A DNA stretch of 59,666 nt from Dehalococcoidia bacterium (GTDB lineage Bacteria; Chloroflexota; Dehalococcoidia; SZUA-161; SpSt-899), in NCBI GenBank assembly GCA_028711995.1, contig JAQTRE010000005.1, positions 1 through 59,666 of the forward strand, read 5' to 3'. Positions 8,095 through 56,780 of the stretch are shown one piece after another. Every line of letters begins with the position of its first letter. Positions within the stretch are counted from its first letter, which is position 1. Under the pieces are notes generated by a model. The model was given only the letters and a program-made list of their open reading frames with translations, did no database searches and was not told where the DNA came from. The translations under genes were made by a program, and so were the position numbers.

Positions 8095-8217
8095 AGTGAA
8101 ACTCCGCCGACAGGAGTCGGCGGCTTCTGGAATACGCGACTCTTGACCCTTGTCCAATTGTCGCGCGCCTTCGGCAGCCTATCCATCCCCGGACAGGAGT
8201 CTGGGGCTTTGACGGCA
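8095..8217 (-). mobile_element. palindrome-ended mini-element, copy B (inside thiolase relic)
   Basis: A 123-bp non-coding element. Read on the minus strand, the left end starts TGCCGTCAAAG right after TTACTC (8218-8223). It has a left hairpin at 8187-8206 (arms CCCCAGAC / GTCCGGGG, loop TCCT) and a right hairpin at 8104-8123 (arms CCGCCGAC / GTCGGCGG, loop TCCT), and ends GAGTTTCACT. Near-identical copies lie at 33776-33898 and 44264-44388. The layout (subterminal hairpins, fixed left flank, no inverted repeats) is that of IS200/IS605-derived palindrome-associated elements. Confidence 0.8.
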
Positions 8218-8270
8218 GAGTAATAGTGTCGGTATCCACCGCAGCCATCCCTTGGCCGATGGCCAGTTCG

Positions 8271-8308
8271 AGTGAAACTCCCCCAAACAAGCTGGGGGGA
8301 GTTTCACT
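8271..8308. repeat. 38-bp palindrome with mini-element right-end tips
   Basis: Arms of 14 bp (AGTGAAACTCCCCC and its complement) separated by a 10-base loop. The outer 11 bases AGTGAAACTCC are the same as the terminal 11 bases of the palindrome-ended mini-elements (reverse strand). It interrupts the start of the thiolase relic 53 bases from copy B, so it may be a fused pair of right ends or a solo hairpin. Confidence 0.6.
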
Positions 8309-8377
8309 TCCTCGGTGATGGCAGACGGTGCTTGACTCATGGTTTCTTCTCCTCCTGTTTGGGCGGCCAAAAAGGGT

Positions 8378-23436: not shown

Positions 23437-23754
23437 ATGAAAGGGATTCCACAGGGGAGGTACACGAAGGAGTTTCGAGAAGAAGCGGTGAAGCTGGTAA
23501 CGGAAGGGAATCTGTCATTGCCGAAGGCTGCGCGGAGCTTGTTATTGCCGCCGTCGACATTGGGGAACTGGTTAAAAGGTTATAAGGCAGGCAAACTGGG
23601 AGAGGTGGGCAAGACACAGAGGCCTTTGACCGAAATAGAGATGGAACTGGCTCGAACAAAGCGGGAGCTGGTTGAGACCCGGATGGAGCGGGACCTGCTA
23701 AAAAAAGCAGCCGTGTACTTTGCGAAGGAGTCGCTGCCCGGTACGCGATGGTAA
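23437..23754 (+). CDS. IS3-family OrfA (helix-turn-helix)
   Basis: About 105 residues from the ATG at 23437 (MKGIPQGRYTKEFREEAVKL), behind AAGGAGAGG. A helix-turn-helix of the transposase_8 type (NLSLPKAARSLLLPPSTLGNW) is followed by a leucine-zipper-like helix (LTEIEMELARTKRELVETRM). An A7 run lies at 23700-23706; copy 2 has six A at the same place. Such runs are common -1 frameshift sites that fuse OrfA and OrfB in IS3 elements. Confidence 0.8.
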   Translation: MKGIPQGRYTKEFREEAVKLVTEGNLSLPKAARSLLLPPSTLGNWLKGYKAGKLGEVGKTQRPLTEIEMELARTKRELVETRMERDLLKKAAVYFAKESLPGTRW

Positions 23755-24609
23755 ATGAGATGCGGCTTCAATACCCGATACCGATGATGTGCCGCATTTA
23801 TGATGTATCGGCAGGCTACTACGCCTGGTTGGAGAGACCGACGTCGAAGCGATCTCGGGAGAATGCGCGACTGGAACTTGAGGATTAAGGCAGCGCACAA
23901 GCGGACGCGTCAGACCTGCGGTCCTGATCGGTTGCAGTGCGATCTGGATGAACACGGCGTCCATGTCGGGGTATGCCGGATCAAACGCCTCCGGAAGAAG
24001 CTGGGCATACGCTGTAAACAGACGAAGAAGTTCAAGACCACCACTGACTCAAAGCATGCCCTACCGGTAGCAGAGAACTTACTGAATCAGCGGTTTAAAG
24101 TATCTAAACCTAATACCGCATGGGTGAGCGATATCACCTATATCCCGACAGGGGAAGGATGGCTGTATCTGGCCGGCCACAAGGATCTTTGCACCGGTGA
24201 GATCGTTGGATATGCCATGGGCGAACGGCTGACGAAGAGTCTGGTGAGTCAATCCCTGTTCCGGGCAGTGGCAGCGAAACGACCGGCAAAGGGACTGCTT
24301 CACCACTCCGATCGGGGAAGTCAGTATTGTTCTTATGAATAACGGGAGTTACTCGAACGGTTTGGAATGAGGGCATCGATGAGCCGGAAAGGGAACTGCT
24401 ATGACAATGCGCCCATGGAGAGCTTCTGGGGAACGCTCAAGCAGGAGCTGATTAACCACTGTTATTATCGAACCAGGCAGGAGGCGATTCGGGACATTAC
24501 CGAATATATCGAGGTCTTCTATAATCGGCAGCGTCGGCAGGCAAGGCTGGGGTATATGTCCCCGATTGCCTATGAACAAAGTCTTTATGCCGGACAACTG
24601 GCGGCATGA
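23751..24609 (+). pseudogene. IS3-family OrfB (integrase-type transposase), inactivated
   Basis: It starts MVNEMRLQYPIPMMCRIYDV. A short deletion near 23880 shifts the frame (LELR-IKAAH in place of LELEIKAAH), and an in-frame TAA at 24340-24342 follows GSQYCSYE. After it, MRASMSRKGNCYDNAPMESF resumes to 24609. The DDE residues (DITYIPT, HSDRGSQY, ESFWGTLKQEL) are each visible, but spread over broken segments. The intact counterpart is at 46116. Confidence 0.82.
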
Positions 24610-33775: not shown

Positions 33776-33898
33776 AGTGAACCTCCGCCGACAGGAGTCG
33801 GCGGCTTCTTGGGTACACGGCTCTTGACCTTCGTCCAATCGCCGTGCGCCTTCGGGCGCCTATCCATCACCAGACCGGAGTCTGGTGGTTTGTCGGCA
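33776..33898 (-). mobile_element. palindrome-ended mini-element, copy C
   Basis: 123 bp between the FAD dehydrogenase stop and the next gene. The left hairpin has arms CACCAGAC / GTCTGGTG; relative to copies A and B the second base pair changed from C-G to A-T on both arms, keeping pairing. The right hairpin CCGCCGAC / GTCGGCGG is unchanged, and the end is GAGGTTCACT. The left flank reads TTTAGTC, a variant of TTACTC. It contributes the false N-terminal extension of the downstream open frame. Confidence 0.8.
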
Positions 33899-33900
33899 GA

Positions 33901-35382
33901 CTAAACCCACGCTTTCTCTTGCGCAGCATTTTGACCCGCGATACGACCAGTCACAAAACAATTCATAAGTGCAGTGCCACTGGTATACAATTTGCCTGTG
34001 GACCCACCTGCAGTCTCACCGCCGGCATATAGTCGCGGGATCTCTTTGCCAAAGACGTCTATTACCCGACATCTGGAATTAATCTTCAATCCCCCCGCAG
34101 TCAAGACGAACACGGTCTTATACTGCATGGCGTAGAAAGGGCCACTCTTGATGGGAACAAGGTGCAAAGTCCTGCCAAATTCAGGGTCTATGCATTTCCC
34201 AGCATTCTCACTAAAGGTGAAAACCGTATCCTGGAGAGTATCGGGATCCATACCTATCTGCTTTGCCAACTCGGCGAGCGTTGATGCTTTCTTCACCATG
34301 CCCTGTTCGATTTCGTCTTTCAATCCCGCACTGGCCATGTGCAGGACTGTTGGACAATTTCTCAGGGCATTTTGATCAAAAATGCACCAGCACGCTTGGT
34401 CTTCGACCTCTCTCATCTTCGGGCCCAGCAATTCATAGTGCATATACTCGTCAACAAATCTGCGGCCCTTCTTGGTCACGAGAACGCACGGTGCCTCTTT
34501 CATAATTGTGATTCTGGGCGCATATATCAGCCTCACTTGCTTACCAGGTTTGACAGTGATAAGGCCTCCCGGCACTCCTACCAACAGGTTGAGCAAACCC
34601 ATATTCACCAGATCAGCGCCCAACGCTTGGGCTACCCTTATGCCATCTCCATCAATACCCATGAGAGCACACATTGGCAAACTTCCCACATATGCTGGCA
34701 GATAATTGCGTACCATCTCTTCGTTGCGAGAGAACCCACCCGTTGCTAGAATTACCGCCCTCCCAGCCCTGATATATTCCTTGTCTGTCTTGACGCCGAC
34801 CACCTCTCTCGTGGCAGGATGCCTTATCAGCTCTCGTACTGGGTTTTCTAGCATTACTCGGATGCGTCGTTGATCGATAGCCTTCCCCAGTGGATTCATC
34901 AAGCCCTCACCCGTACCCTCCTGAACAATGTGGCCCCTCGGTTTGGCTGGCGTCAGGCTATCATATTGGGGGAGTCTTTCCAATCCCGTGAACATTAGCA
35001 GTTCAGGCGGGAACTTGACACCCAGATTCATAAGCCACTCAATACTCTCCGCTGATTTCTCCGCATTGCTTCTCAGGCGCTCTTCATCTGCCTGTCCCTC
35101 TGCGGTAGCCTTAAGGTACGTCAAGAACGCATCAGCGCTGTCGTCGATACCCCTCGCCTTTTGAAAGGAAGTGCCAGCAGCAAGTATTATGCCTCCGGAG
35201 ATCAAAGTATTACCGCCTGGCTTAGGCATCTTCTCAAGGATAAGCACTTCAGCTCCTCTATCATGTGCCTCAATAGCAGCGGCAGCCCCGGTTGCTCCAT
35301 ATCCGGCCACCACAATGTCCACCTCTAGGTCCCATCTTTCAGGCAGCACTGTGTTCTCTTTAAGTTTTCTCACTGTTGCCAT
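33901..35382 (-). CDS. FAD-dependent oxidoreductase (fumarate-reductase / 3-ketosteroid-dehydrogenase flavoprotein type)
   Basis: A 493-residue protein of the FAD-binding-2 family. The nucleotide loop is VVAGYGATGAAAAIEAHDRG (about 21-40), then EKMPKPGGNTLISGG, an alpha/beta capping domain in the middle, AGRAVILATGGFSRNEEMV, and the C-terminal FAD segment LYAGGETAGGSTGKLY. No secretion signal and no heme motif, so it is cytoplasmic. Such enzymes oxidise or reduce alpha,beta C-C bonds next to carbonyls. Its stop codon abuts mini-element copy C, so the last residues may be altered. It lies in line with the carboxylase trio and may desaturate or reduce the carboxylated product. Confidence 0.85.
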   Translation of the reverse strand: MATVRKLKENTVLPERWDLEVDIVVAGYGATGAAAAIEAHDRGAEVLILEKMPKPGGNTLISGGIILAAGTSFQKARGIDDSADAFLTYLKATAEGQADEERLRSNAEKSAESIEWLMNLGVKFPPELLMFTGLERLPQYDSLTPAKPRGHIVQEGTGEGLMNPLGKAIDQRRIRVMLENPVRELIRHPATREVVGVKTDKEYIRAGRAVILATGGFSRNEEMVRNYLPAYVGSLPMCALMGIDGDGIRVAQALGADLVNMGLLNLLVGVPGGLITVKPGKQVRLIYAPRITIMKEAPCVLVTKKGRRFVDEYMHYELLGPKMREVEDQACWCIFDQNALRNCPTVLHMASAGLKDEIEQGMVKKASTLAELAKQIGMDPDTLQDTVFTFSENAGKCIDPEFGRTLHLVPIKSGPFYAMQYKTVFVLTAGGLKINSRCRVIDVFGKEIPRLYAGGETAGGSTGKLYTSGTALMNCFVTGRIAGQNAAQEKAWV

Positions 35383-44060: not shown

Positions 44061-44117
44061 GTAAAGTGCCACGGGCTCTGCCCGTGGCACTTTACAGGTC
44101 AAGCGAAGCTTGACCTG
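44061..44117. repeat. two adjoining perfect hairpins (right end of an IS200-like element)
   Basis: Hairpin 1, 44061-44095: 16-bp arms GTAAAGTGCCACGGGC, loop TCT. Hairpin 2, 44095-44117: 10-bp arms CAGGTCAAGC, loop GAA. They overlap and follow the C-terminal codons of the tnpA fragment on the minus strand. Imperfect or perfect subterminal hairpins at the right end are the hallmark of IS200/IS605 elements. Confidence 0.65.
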
Positions 44118-44262
44118 AATCCTGGACACCTTGCCACTTCACATACTCAATGACCTGTTTCTCATTCAGCCCTATTGTGGAAACAAAGTATCCTGGTGAC
44201 CAGACCACCTGCTCCTTCCAGTAGACCTTCTCCAAACATGCAAACTTTTCCCTCAGATTACT
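44092..44262 (-). pseudogene. IS200/IS605 tnpA C-terminal fragment
   Basis: The minus strand reads NLREKFACLEKVYWKEQVVW, SPGYFVSTIGLNEKQVIEYV, then KWQGVQDSGQASLDL and a stop at 44092. These are the helix with the catalytic tyrosine region (SPGYFVSTIG) and the usual GQ-x-LDL tail of Y1 transposases. The 5' part is replaced at TTACTC (44258-44263) by mini-element copy A. A parallel fragment at 50240-50530 keeps the uninterrupted sequence across this point. Confidence 0.78.
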
Positions 44263-44263
44263 C

Positions 44264-44388
44264 TGCCGTCAAAGCCCCAGACTCCTGTCCGGGGATGGAT
44301 AGGCCGCCGAAGGCGCGCGACAATTGGACAAGGGTCAAGAGTCGCGTATTCCAGAAGCCGCCGCGACTCCTGTCGGCGGAGTTTCACT
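44264..44388 (+). mobile_element. palindrome-ended mini-element, copy A
   Basis: 125 bp. It starts TGCCGTCAAAG right after TTACTC. Left hairpin 44275-44294 (CCCCAGAC / GTCCGGGG). The internal GACAAGGGTCAAGAGT resembles the DKGQ codons at the end of the tnpA at 56.5 kb. Right hairpin CCGCCG(CG)AC / GTCGGCGG with a 2-base insertion; ends GAGTTTCACT. Its left flank is IS200 tnpA and its right flank is IS3 orfA, so the copy sits at a junction created by recombination or deletion. Confidence 0.8.
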
Positions 44389-44439
44389 AAACTGGGTGAA
44401 AGCCTACAAGGCTGGGAAGTTGGGGGATGTGGGCAAGAC
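44389..44439 (+). pseudogene. IS3 copy 2, orfA 5' fragment
   Basis: Encodes NWVKAYKAGKLGDVGKT, the same segment as NWLKGYKAGKLGEVGKT in copy 1 orfA. It is cut upstream by the mini-element and downstream by the nested IS at 44440. The gene resumes at 45977. Confidence 0.75.
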
Positions 44440-44560
44440 TGTAGATCGTCAGCTAAAATGGGACACAAAAAGGGGTGAAGGAACCGAACAGGGGGAGGGG
44501 TGGGGTAGCACAAGCTCCAGTGAGGTAGTAGAGTAATGTCAATACAGAAAGGAGCTAAGC

Positions 44561-45976: not shown

Positions 45977-46994
45977 GGCAAGACATATAGGCCGTTGACC
46001 GAAATAGAGCTGGAACTGGCCCGGACCAAGAGGGAATTGGCAGAGACTCGGATGGAGCGGGACCTGCTAAAAAAGCAGCCGTGTACTTTGCCAAGGAGTC
46101 GCTGCCCGGTACACGATGATGAAGGAGATGCGACTTCAGTACCCGGTGCCGATGATGTGCCGGATTTACCAGGTATCCGCCAGCGGCTACTACGCCTGGT
46201 CGGAGAGACCGCCGTCGAAGCGATCTCGTGAGGAAGCGCGGTTGGAACTGGAGATCAAGGCAGCACATAAGCGGACGCGTCAGACCTGTGGTCCTGATCG
46301 GTTGCGGCGCGACATGGAGGAACACGACATCCATGTCGGGATATGGCGGATCAGACGCATCCGGAATAAGCTGGGCATACGCTGTAAACAGACGAAGAAG
46401 TACGAGGCCACCACTGACTCCAAGCATGCCCTGCCGGTAGCAGAGAACTTATTGAACCAGCAGTTTGAGATATCTCAGCCCAATACGGTCTGGGTGAGTG
46501 ATATCACCTACATCCCAACAGGGGAAGGCTGGCTGTATCTGGCCGGCCACAAGGATCTTCGCACTGGCCAGATCGTCGGCTATGCCATGGGAGAGCGTTT
46601 GACCAAGAGCCTGGTGAGCCAATCGCTGTTCCAGGCTGTGGCCGCCAAACGACCCGCAAAGGGGTTGATTCACCACTCCGATCGGGGCAGTCAATATTGC
46701 TCTTTTGAGTATCAGAAGCTGCTGGACCGGTTTGGAATGAGGGCATCGATGAGCCAGAAAGGGAACTGTTATGACAACGCACCCATGGAGAGCTTCTGGG
46801 GAACGCTCAAGCAAGAACTGGTCCACCACTGTCGGTACAGGACCAGACAGGAGGCGATCCGGGATATCAGCGAGTATATCGAAGTGTTCTACAACCGGCA
46901 GCGGCGACAGGCCAGACTAGGGTACATGTCCCCGGTGGCTTATGAGCAACATCTCTATGCTGGACAGCTGGTGGCATGAAGGGGTTTTGGTGTC
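45977..46994 (+). mobile_element. IS3-family insertion sequence, copy 2, right part
   Basis: Resumes orfA (KTYRPLTEIELELARTKREL) after the nested IS, then an intact orfB, and ends TTTTGGTGTCCA at about 46994, the complement of the left end TGGACACC seen in copy 1. An A6 run lies in orfA (GCTAAAAAAGC), where copy 1 has A7. Confidence 0.78.
46116..46979 (+). CDS. IS3-family OrfB transposase
   Basis: A 287-residue integrase-core transposase. N-terminal HTH_21: MKEMRLQYPVPMMCRIYQVS. The core has Asp in WVSDITYIPTGEGWLYLAGH, Asp in HHSDRGSQYCSFEYQKLLDR, and Glu in NAPMESFWGTLKQEL. It is full length, unlike copy 1 at 23751, which has a stop and a frameshift. Its own orfA is split by the nested IS, so it probably cannot be made as the usual fusion. 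Confidence 0.87.
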   Translation: MMKEMRLQYPVPMMCRIYQVSASGYYAWSERPPSKRSREEARLELEIKAAHKRTRQTCGPDRLRRDMEEHDIHVGIWRIRRIRNKLGIRCKQTKKYEATTDSKHALPVAENLLNQQFEISQPNTVWVSDITYIPTGEGWLYLAGHKDLRTGQIVGYAMGERLTKSLVSQSLFQAVAAKRPAKGLIHHSDRGSQYCSFEYQKLLDRFGMRASMSQKGNCYDNAPMESFWGTLKQELVHHCRYRTRQEAIRDISEYIEVFYNRQRRQARLGYMSPVAYEQHLYAGQLVA

Positions 46995-50239: not shown

Positions 50240-50530
50240 TTATTCCAACCTCCTCTCTAAATACTTCTTGCATCTGAAATGATCGATAAGTAGATCCTGG
50301 ACACCTTGCCACTTCACATACTCAATGACCTGTTTCTCATTCAGCCCTATTGTGGAAACAAAGTATCCTGGTGACCAGACCACCTGCTCCTTCCAGTAGA
50401 CCTTCTCCAACCATGCAAACTTTTCCCTCAGATTACTCGCCGTATATTGCTTCATCTCACCAACTACGTCGCTCACTGCATACTTCGGCGGAATCACTAT
50501 CACCATGTGTATATGATCCAATAAACCCGA
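50240..50530 (-). pseudogene. IS200/IS605 tnpA fragment (uninterrupted homolog of the copy A site)
   Basis: On the minus strand: LDHIHMVIVIPPKYAVSDVV, GEMKQYTASNLREKFAWLEK, VYWKEQVVWSPGYFVSTIGL. The HUH pair (HIH) and the catalytic-tyrosine helix region (SPGYFVSTIG) are seen; the N-terminal ~45 residues and the proper C-terminus are missing. At 50434-50445 it reads CAGATTACTCGCCG, the sequence that at 44258 is broken by the mini-element after TTACTC. 50531-50872 holds no recognisable gene. Confidence 0.75.
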
Positions 50531-55035: not shown

Positions 55036-56158
55036 GGTTTGTTTTGGATAATAATAGTAAAGTCTGATATTGCCAGGGGACCTCTGAATAAGTAGTCGAA
55101 AAATATCTTTCAGGTGTCTACACTCTCCAGAATTCTGTTTCAGAATCCCAAATGGGTGGTTTTCATCTTTCCCCCTCTTTTTATGAGGAAATTCTGTGCT
55201 TTTGGGCAGACTGATATGTCCCCGAAAACCGATCCAAGTCTAACATCTGAGATCAAGGGTGCATCATCCCGATCATGGCAGCAACTGCGAGATCCAATAC
55301 TGCAACAGGAGGTTCAGGTGAGTTTTAAGGTAGTCCAGCTTGTTAAGACAGACTTCATGCCCGATTATGCCCAGATATTCAAACAGGCTGGGGTAAATAT
55401 CGAAGTATCTGTCAAAACATGCCGCACTGAGGATGAGTGTATCTCTACTGCCCAAGATGCTGACGCCTTGCTTATCGCCACCATCGTCAATATCCTCTCG
55501 CCACGAGTGCTGAGGGCACTTCCGAAATGCCGTTTTATCCAGAGTATTGGCGTGGGTTATGAAGGAATAGATGTAACAACAGCGACAGAGCAGGGTATTA
55601 TGGTGGCTAACATTCCCGGCTTCAATGCCGAAGAGGTTTCGGACCATACCATGGCTCTTATTCTGGCCTGCACGCGAAAGATCGTCAGCCTGAACGAAGC
55701 GACCAAGGCCGGGAAATGGAACAGTAAGTTTTCAGTCTATATCCTGCGAAATATCTGGCCCGATCTGGCGCGCCTGCGGGGGCAGACACTCGGACTGGTA
55801 GGGTTTGGGGCCATTCCTAAGATGCTGGTACCCAAGGCAAAGGCCTTTGGGATGCGACTGATCACCTATGATCCCTATGCCTCAAAGAGCTTGTGCGATT
55901 CACTAGGGGTGGAAAAGGTGGACGAACTGAACCAACTCCTTGTGGAATCGGATATTGTCTCATTGCACACACCGCTCGATGATCAAACCAGGGGAATGAT
56001 GGGCATGGCGCAGTTTGAGAAGATGAAGCGCAAGGCTTATTTGATTAACACCGCGAGAGGACCTGTCGTCGAAACCCAGGCCCTCTATCAGGCTCTCGTC
56101 AAGGGCTTGATAGCCGGAGCTGCCTTGGATGTCGCTGATCCAGAGCCCCTTAATATGG

Positions 56159-56589
56159 AAGAATAGCCGTATATCGTCTGGACACCTCGATATCGTCGGC
56201 GGATATTTGTAAAGGGAGTAGACCAATATCTGACGGAACTGCTGATGAATCTGGAAGGGCTAGACGATGATATCGAGGTAATAAGGGTCAATGTGCAAGT
56301 CGATCATGTACATATAGTGACCATAATTCCGCCTCGGCTATCGGTGGGAAGTGCAGTCCAGTACATGAAATCGCAGAGCGCGAAAAAGCTGAGAGAACGT
56401 TTTGAGTTCATACGCAAAGCGATAAGTCGAGGCGGGATATGGTCCCGCGGATACTGTGTCTCAACCGTTGGCATGAATGAAGCGATGATCTTAAAGTATG
56501 TGGAACACCAAGAAAGAGAAGACAAGGGACAGTTGAGACTAGAGTTATGACGTCAAGAAGCCGCCGACTCCCGTCGGCGGAGGTTCACT
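56159..56589 (+). mobile_element. IS200/IS605 element with tnpA, left end missing
   Basis: Inserted in the dehydrogenase gene. The right end (hairpin 56561-56580, CCGCCGAC / GTCGGCGG, then GAGGTTCACT) matches the right ends of the three mini-elements at 8.1, 33.8 and 44.3 kb. The left hairpin expected for the family is not found next to the truncated tnpA. Confidence 0.78.
56167..56550 (+). pseudogene. tnpA, Y1 (HUH) transposase, 5'-truncated
   Basis: In frame from 56167: YIVWTPRYRRRIFVKGVDQY, then NVQVDHVHIVTIIPPRLSVG (the HUH metal-binding pair VDHVHI) and GIWSRGYCVSTVGMNEAMIL (catalytic-tyrosine region RGYCVSTVG), ending EDKGQLRLEL. Only the first ~12 residues are missing, and no start codon is present until 56245. 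The tail codons GACAAGGGACAG match the internal GACAAGGGTCAA of the mini-elements, which supports derivation of those from this type of element. Confidence 0.8.
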
Positions 56590-56780
56590 TGGATAACGTC
56601 ATTATCGCAGCCCACAGTGCCGGGGTTTCGCGGACAGCCATCTTCGAGGGGTTCAGAATAGCCGGAGAAGAGCTGATCAATGTACTATTAAAGCATCAAT
56701 GGCCCTCTGGTTTGGTGAATCCACAGGTCAAAGAGAAGTACCGGCAAAAGTGGGGATCAGTAAAGAGGCAGAGCGGTTAA

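Follow-up and report, generated by a model that had tools for sequence, protein, structure and literature searches.

A truncated IS200-group element, its mini-elements and their apparent one-base retargeting in a Dehalococcoidia genome

Can a tnpA-bearing element that interrupts a dehydrogenase gene account for the transposase-less mini-elements (minis) found on the same DNA, and could it still move them? The stretch analysed here, 59,666 nts of DNA from a Dehalococcoidia bacterium (hereafter the window), had been predicted to contain both a likely parent of the minis and a source of trans-acting transposase. We propose that it holds a decayed tnpA-only IS200-group element (IS200/IS605 family) together with three of the four PATE-type mini-elements of the same family, moved by the mechanism outlined below, and we give this reading a probability of roughly 0.88. 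IS200-group insertion sequences and PATE-type mini-elements are both known kinds, and the part worth following is the apparent one-base retargeting among sibling minis.

The interrupted gene and the element within it comprise the following features:

55114..56163 (+), 5' part of a D-2-hydroxyacid dehydrogenase gene broken by the element (open reading frame; NCBIfam dehydrogenase matches; 77% identical paralog at G000:C46:15100)
56164..56166 (+), TAG stop, in frame with the dehydrogenase and the tnpA remnant alike and near the putative deletion junction
56167..56550 (+), 5'-truncated tnpA remnant (Y1-HUH transposase), 127 codons plus TGA
56557..56560 (+), right guide GAAG, identical in every copy with a right end (IS608 model, PMC5934647)
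56561..56580 (+), right-end hairpin CCGCCGAC-TCCC-GTCGGCGG
56581..56588 (+), right tip AGGTTCAC, whose last bases are the right cleavage site TCAC; the +1 base of the flank is T
56589..56780 (+), 3' part of the dehydrogenase gene (LDNVIIAAHSAG...) (open reading frame; paralog L046)

The frame 56167-56550 encodes an IS200/IS605 transposase (NCBIfam NF033573, E 4.5e-28, profile positions 14-126). Aligned to solved TnpAs, it keeps the HVH motif and the tyrosine of KYVEHQ, that is, the HUH motif and single catalytic tyrosine of a Y1-HUH enzyme. The N-terminus is missing: in phmmer alignments with solved TnpAs (IS608 and relatives), the match begins no earlier than about residue 17-26 of those proteins, and the stretch MRFxKSxHxxYxTEY(H), seen in the complete relative L028 described below and in L029/L030 (54-55% identical), is not there. 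The losses comprise the start codon and about 16 residues, and the earliest start is at 56245. The 3' end of the element reads GAAG-CCGCCGAC-TCCC-GTCGGCGG-AGGTTCAC, then T, and its hairpin is the only one retained. Position 56159, where the range originally given begins, is not the left end of the element, which appears to have been deleted. With N-terminus, start codon and left end all absent, the window copy is not a complete, potentially functional tnpA element.

The paralog in the same genome suggests how this came about. It reads EPINIDNPLLKLDNVIITAHSAG where the window has EPLNMEE, a stop, the remnant and then LDNVIIAAHSAG, so that about 4-5 host codons are gone beside the left junction. 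One deletion of very roughly 140 nts after insertion would account for the missing left end, tnpA start and host codons at once; the junction could instead be an assembly error.

The right end links this remnant to the minis. The window contains GTCGGCGG 10 times (1.4 expected), paired as hairpins at ~8.1, 33.8 and 56.6 kb; over the whole 3.3 Mb genome the right-end pattern finds 4 copies, against 0 in a reversed control, and misses mini44 because of a 2-nt insertion in the right hairpin of that copy. The minis of the window, and a neighbour of one of them, are:

8096..8219 (-), mini8, 124 nts; target TTAC at 8220-8223, guide AAAG
33777..33900 (-), mini33, 124 nts; target TTAG at 33901-33904, guide AAAC
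44262..44387 (+), mini44, 126 nts; target TTAC at 44258-44261, guide AAAG
44095..44262 (-), left flank of mini44, a remnant of another IS200-type tnpA (42% identity with the 56-kb TnpA)

A fourth mini-element, miniC7, lies on contig C7 and adds to the three originally counted. Like the parent, the minis have a left and a right hairpin; they are short and non-coding, with no repeated target at their two ends. These ends are those of an IS605-type transposon, both being shared with L028 and the right one with the tnpA element of the window. In the latter it spans 56554-56589 (36 nts) and agrees with the right end of mini33 at 35/36 positions and with that of mini8 at 92% over 37 nts, which upholds the predicted right-end match; mini44 is closely similar as well, with 2 extra bases in its hairpin. 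The tip GAGGTTCACT, supposedly common to all, is exact in mini33 and the tnpA element only, mini8 and mini44 having GAGTTTCACT.

The surroundings of the minis call for a few remarks. The flavoprotein gene at 33901-35382 (-) kept its frame after the insertion of mini33 because the target TTAG contains its TAG stop. About 47 nts past the mini8 target, at 8271-8309, lies a near-perfect palindrome, AGTGAAACTCCCCC-AAACAAGCT-GGGGGGAGTTTCACT, which shows the right-tip motif GGGGGAGTTTCACT on both strands and no GAAG guide; it is possibly a head-to-head pair of right-end tips. Within the tnpA remnant to the left of mini44, 44119-44263 is 99% identical to 50294-50438. The right flank (44388-44530) does not continue that remnant (compare 50294-50518) and resembles what lies beside a tnpA remnant of contig C217; it has probably been replaced in a later rearrangement.

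The MAG, 96% complete, yielded no intact and closely related tnpA. Other TnpAs of the assembly with at least 90 matched residues are at most 46% identical to the window TnpA, and a 30-residue TnpA fragment at a contig end, 63% identical, comes from the other TnpA family of the MAG. The segments 23608-24182 and 45977-46552, 85-88% identical, look by eye like two diverged copies of another, IS3-like transposase gene. Viral contigs gave no TnpA or left-end motif matches and plasmids gave none. Across the host family (8 genomes) and the host class (393 genomes sampled), the element family occurs in the window's own genome only, which suggests a horizontal arrival.

A scan of genome contigs did turn up a TnpA 72-73% identical to that of the window, in the Nitrospirae MAG HyVt-545, and it belongs to a complete element, L028 (L028:1245-1792; target TTAG), with a 142-aa tnpA starting at GTG and both ends present. 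L028 has subterminal hairpins at both ends and no terminal inverted repeats; its left end is TCTGCCGATAAAC-CACCAGAC-TTCA-GTCTGGTG-ATGGATAGGC and its right end GAAG-hairpin-AGTTTCAC. A complete parent with a wholly different left end would have spoken against the proposed parentage. The left end of L028 is that of the minis, with 40/43 identities to mini33, 39/43 to miniC7 and 35/43 to mini8 (blastn against mini33: 94% over 48 nts, E 8e-14), and its right end is 89-96% identical to theirs. The prediction of a likely parent family is thereby borne out, and a common origin of the mini-elements, the window tnpA element and L028 is strongly supported by these alignments. Since the complete parent belongs to a distant lineage and none of the 392 other host-class genomes sampled yielded the family, we infer the left end of the local parent from its relatives. 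Three more genomes of the class of HyVt-545 have left ends of the family, one of them with a right end as well; in the phylum sample of HyVt-545, six further weak matches besides the two known ones (E about 0.002-0.008) were judged on reading to be chance.

The leader of L028 contains GTCCAAACAATG, exactly complementary to the early tnpA codons CATTGTTTGGAC, and the predicted fold of 1289-1387 encloses the GTG start. Translational control has been described for IS200, whose regulation this 5' inverted repeat resembles, and the predicted pairing fits translational repression. In a related TnpA family from other MAGs (L029, L030 and L031, 54-58% identical), TTAG stands directly before the common left-end GCGGGCATACAAC at 3/3 loci.

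In IS608, the guide AAAG at the hairpin foot reads the left target TTAC while GAAT reads the right cleavage site TCAA (PMC5934647). The same reading can be applied to the present family, whose copies differ in both target and guide: TTAC with AAAG in mini8 and mini44, TTAG with AAAC in mini33, in L028 and in left ends from genomes G153, G154 and G161, and TTAT with AAAA in miniC7. Position 4 of guide and target is thus complementary in 8/8 elements, with three pair types (permuted guides: P 0.006, or 0.024 with mini8 and mini44 counted once; the independent lineages are few, and TTAG/AAAC makes up 5/8 elements). Between mini33 and miniC7 the guide base is the sole difference in the left ends, and it is matched by a difference in their targets. 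On the right, guide (GAAG) and cleavage site (TCAC) do not vary among copies. In 7/7 copies with a visible right flank, the first base beyond the element is T. All eight left ends have a TTAN target and a complementary guide base, with no duplication, as is typical of IS200/IS605 targets. Following the +1 preferences published for IS608 (C, about 70%) and ISDra2 (G, about 90%), we place the cut between TTAN and T; as the cut has a T on either side, a pentanucleotide target cut after the T fits the data equally. Taken at the level of sequence, the kinship of the family, the truncation, the ends and the agreement of guide with target are established.

What lies between the ends of the minis is harder to derive from a parent. 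In alignment A1, columns 58-64 pair with 84-90 and 67-72 with 77-81 to form a core hairpin. Six compensatory pairs (one left, two core, three right) occur in the mini hairpins and none in sliding controls, a covariation that, coming from only four sequences in two main lineages, supports these structures without proving them. The minis also fold, as DNA and as RNA, more stably than shuffled sequences (z to -5.6), most clearly mini33 and miniC7, whose cores differ at two bases. The codons for DKGQ from the 3' end of tnpA had been thought recognisable inside the minis; the match of GACAAGGG-CA to the window tnpA is not significant in any mini at the 1% level. What can be retained of that claim is GACAAGGGTCAA, identical at 12/12 positions between mini8/mini44 and L028 (P 0.0025 against the L028 3' part, 0.0025-0.0075 against the whole body) and not significant in mini33 and miniC7. 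This lone 12-nt match of core to parent, in 2/4 minis, is weak and suggestive only; as these letters also make up the top of the covarying core hairpin, a common ancestry of the stretch is possible, though unproven. Most of the ~48-nt core does not align with L028, and simple internal deletion from the known parent therefore fails to explain the minis. There is about an even chance that the core is a separately maintained hairpin module and that minis served by the same transposase were retargeted by one-base guide changes.

From these features we infer the family's activity, the mobilisation of the minis in trans and the order of events. The Y1-HUH TnpA of the family would have acted on single-stranded DNA, binding the left and right hairpins and cutting 3' of TTAN on the left and 3' of TCAC on the right, at sites set by pairing with guides at the hairpin feet (AAA plus the complement of N on the left, GAAG on the right). 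The excised circle would insert 3' of TTAN and before a T, the last target base being complementary to the guide. The parent would thus have entered the dehydrogenase gene, to lose its left end, tnpA start and a few host codons later. The minis would have retained the two ends, with a short structured core between them. An intact parent, since lost, missing from the assembly or present elsewhere in the population, presumably moved them in trans, and guide changes would have given them three target specificities.

Which transposase moved the minis is the point at which other explanations arise. It is very unlikely that the window tnpA is itself active and mobilises them in trans, even though its 127-codon frame is open, its HVH and YxxxQ residues are conserved and the near-identical pairs of minis suggest fairly recent movement. 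An in-frame TAG stands immediately upstream and translation from 56245 would cost 26 more residues; with left end and tnpA start lost by deletion, the window copy cannot supply TnpA. We therefore reject it as an active source, and with it the trans-acting role originally assigned to it. Mobilisation by the other TnpA family of the MAG is improbable too, if slightly less so. An apparently intact member of the same superfamily does exist in the assembly (C23:24329-24709, an open frame of 145 aa), but it is only 44% identical, and the subterminal hairpins that a TnpA reportedly binds are its own (PMC5934647); those of this element are CCACGGGC-TT-GCCCGTGG, with the right tip GGTATCTAC, unlike those of the minis. 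All other TnpAs of the MAG whose ends were readable are flanked by hairpins unrelated to those of the minis and were rejected as parents because their element ends differ.

The strong folding of the minis and their covarying core hairpin could also be those of TnpB-associated guide-RNA (omega-RNA) loci or of some other structured RNA rather than of transposable mini-elements. This we consider least probable of all and reject, since TnpB (PF07282) is absent from the MAG and Rfam gives no convincing match for the minis; their boundaries, the lack of target duplication and the guide/target pairing fit single-stranded DNA transposition. Past mobilisation by an intact TnpA of the same family is the most likely reading.

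Among known systems, IS608 of Helicobacter pylori resembles the present family in having a Y1-HUH TnpA, a subterminal hairpin at each end and no target duplication; its left TTAC/AAAG is identical to that of mini8 and mini44, and its right GAAT/TCAA parallels GAAG/TCAC here (PMC5934647). Unlike IS608, the present family is without tnpB, its target position 4 varies with the guide among copies, and the +1 base is T and not C. IS200-group elements with tnpA only likewise have one short tnpA between hairpin ends, whereas the window copy is truncated and a complete copy is known here from MAGs alone. The PATEs of Haloquadratum resemble the minis in having near-terminal palindromes, no inverted terminal repeats and no target duplication, in being too short to code, and in their IS605-type transposon-like ends (PMC3119063). 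The minis differ in that their core is a conserved covarying hairpin and that the guide varies together with the target from copy to copy. For some PATEs the core is reported to be a deletion derivative of the parent. The REP/REPtron systems with TnpA-REP (RAYT) also carry a tetranucleotide at the foot of their hairpins (PMC6006769), but the present family has two different hairpins, LE/RE polarity and four copies only, and its guides are AAAN and GAAG rather than GTAG/GTGG.

A complete relative in another lineage thus ties transposase-less minis to their parent family. IS608 has been retargeted experimentally through a changed guide (PMC5934647, citing earlier work). In a small sample of the literature, no natural guide-retargeting series inside one genome was found, which is no proof of novelty. 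As read from their sequences, sibling mini-elements inside one genome apparently underwent natural one-base retargeting; if true, this would parallel in nature the retargeting of IS608 by engineering. The insertion sites form a small natural data set from which the IS608-derived DNA guide rule can be read: where the guide base differs, the target base differs. If this is borne out with more copies, the target choice of the family would be predictable from sequence, and non-autonomous copies could switch target specificity independently of the transposase gene.
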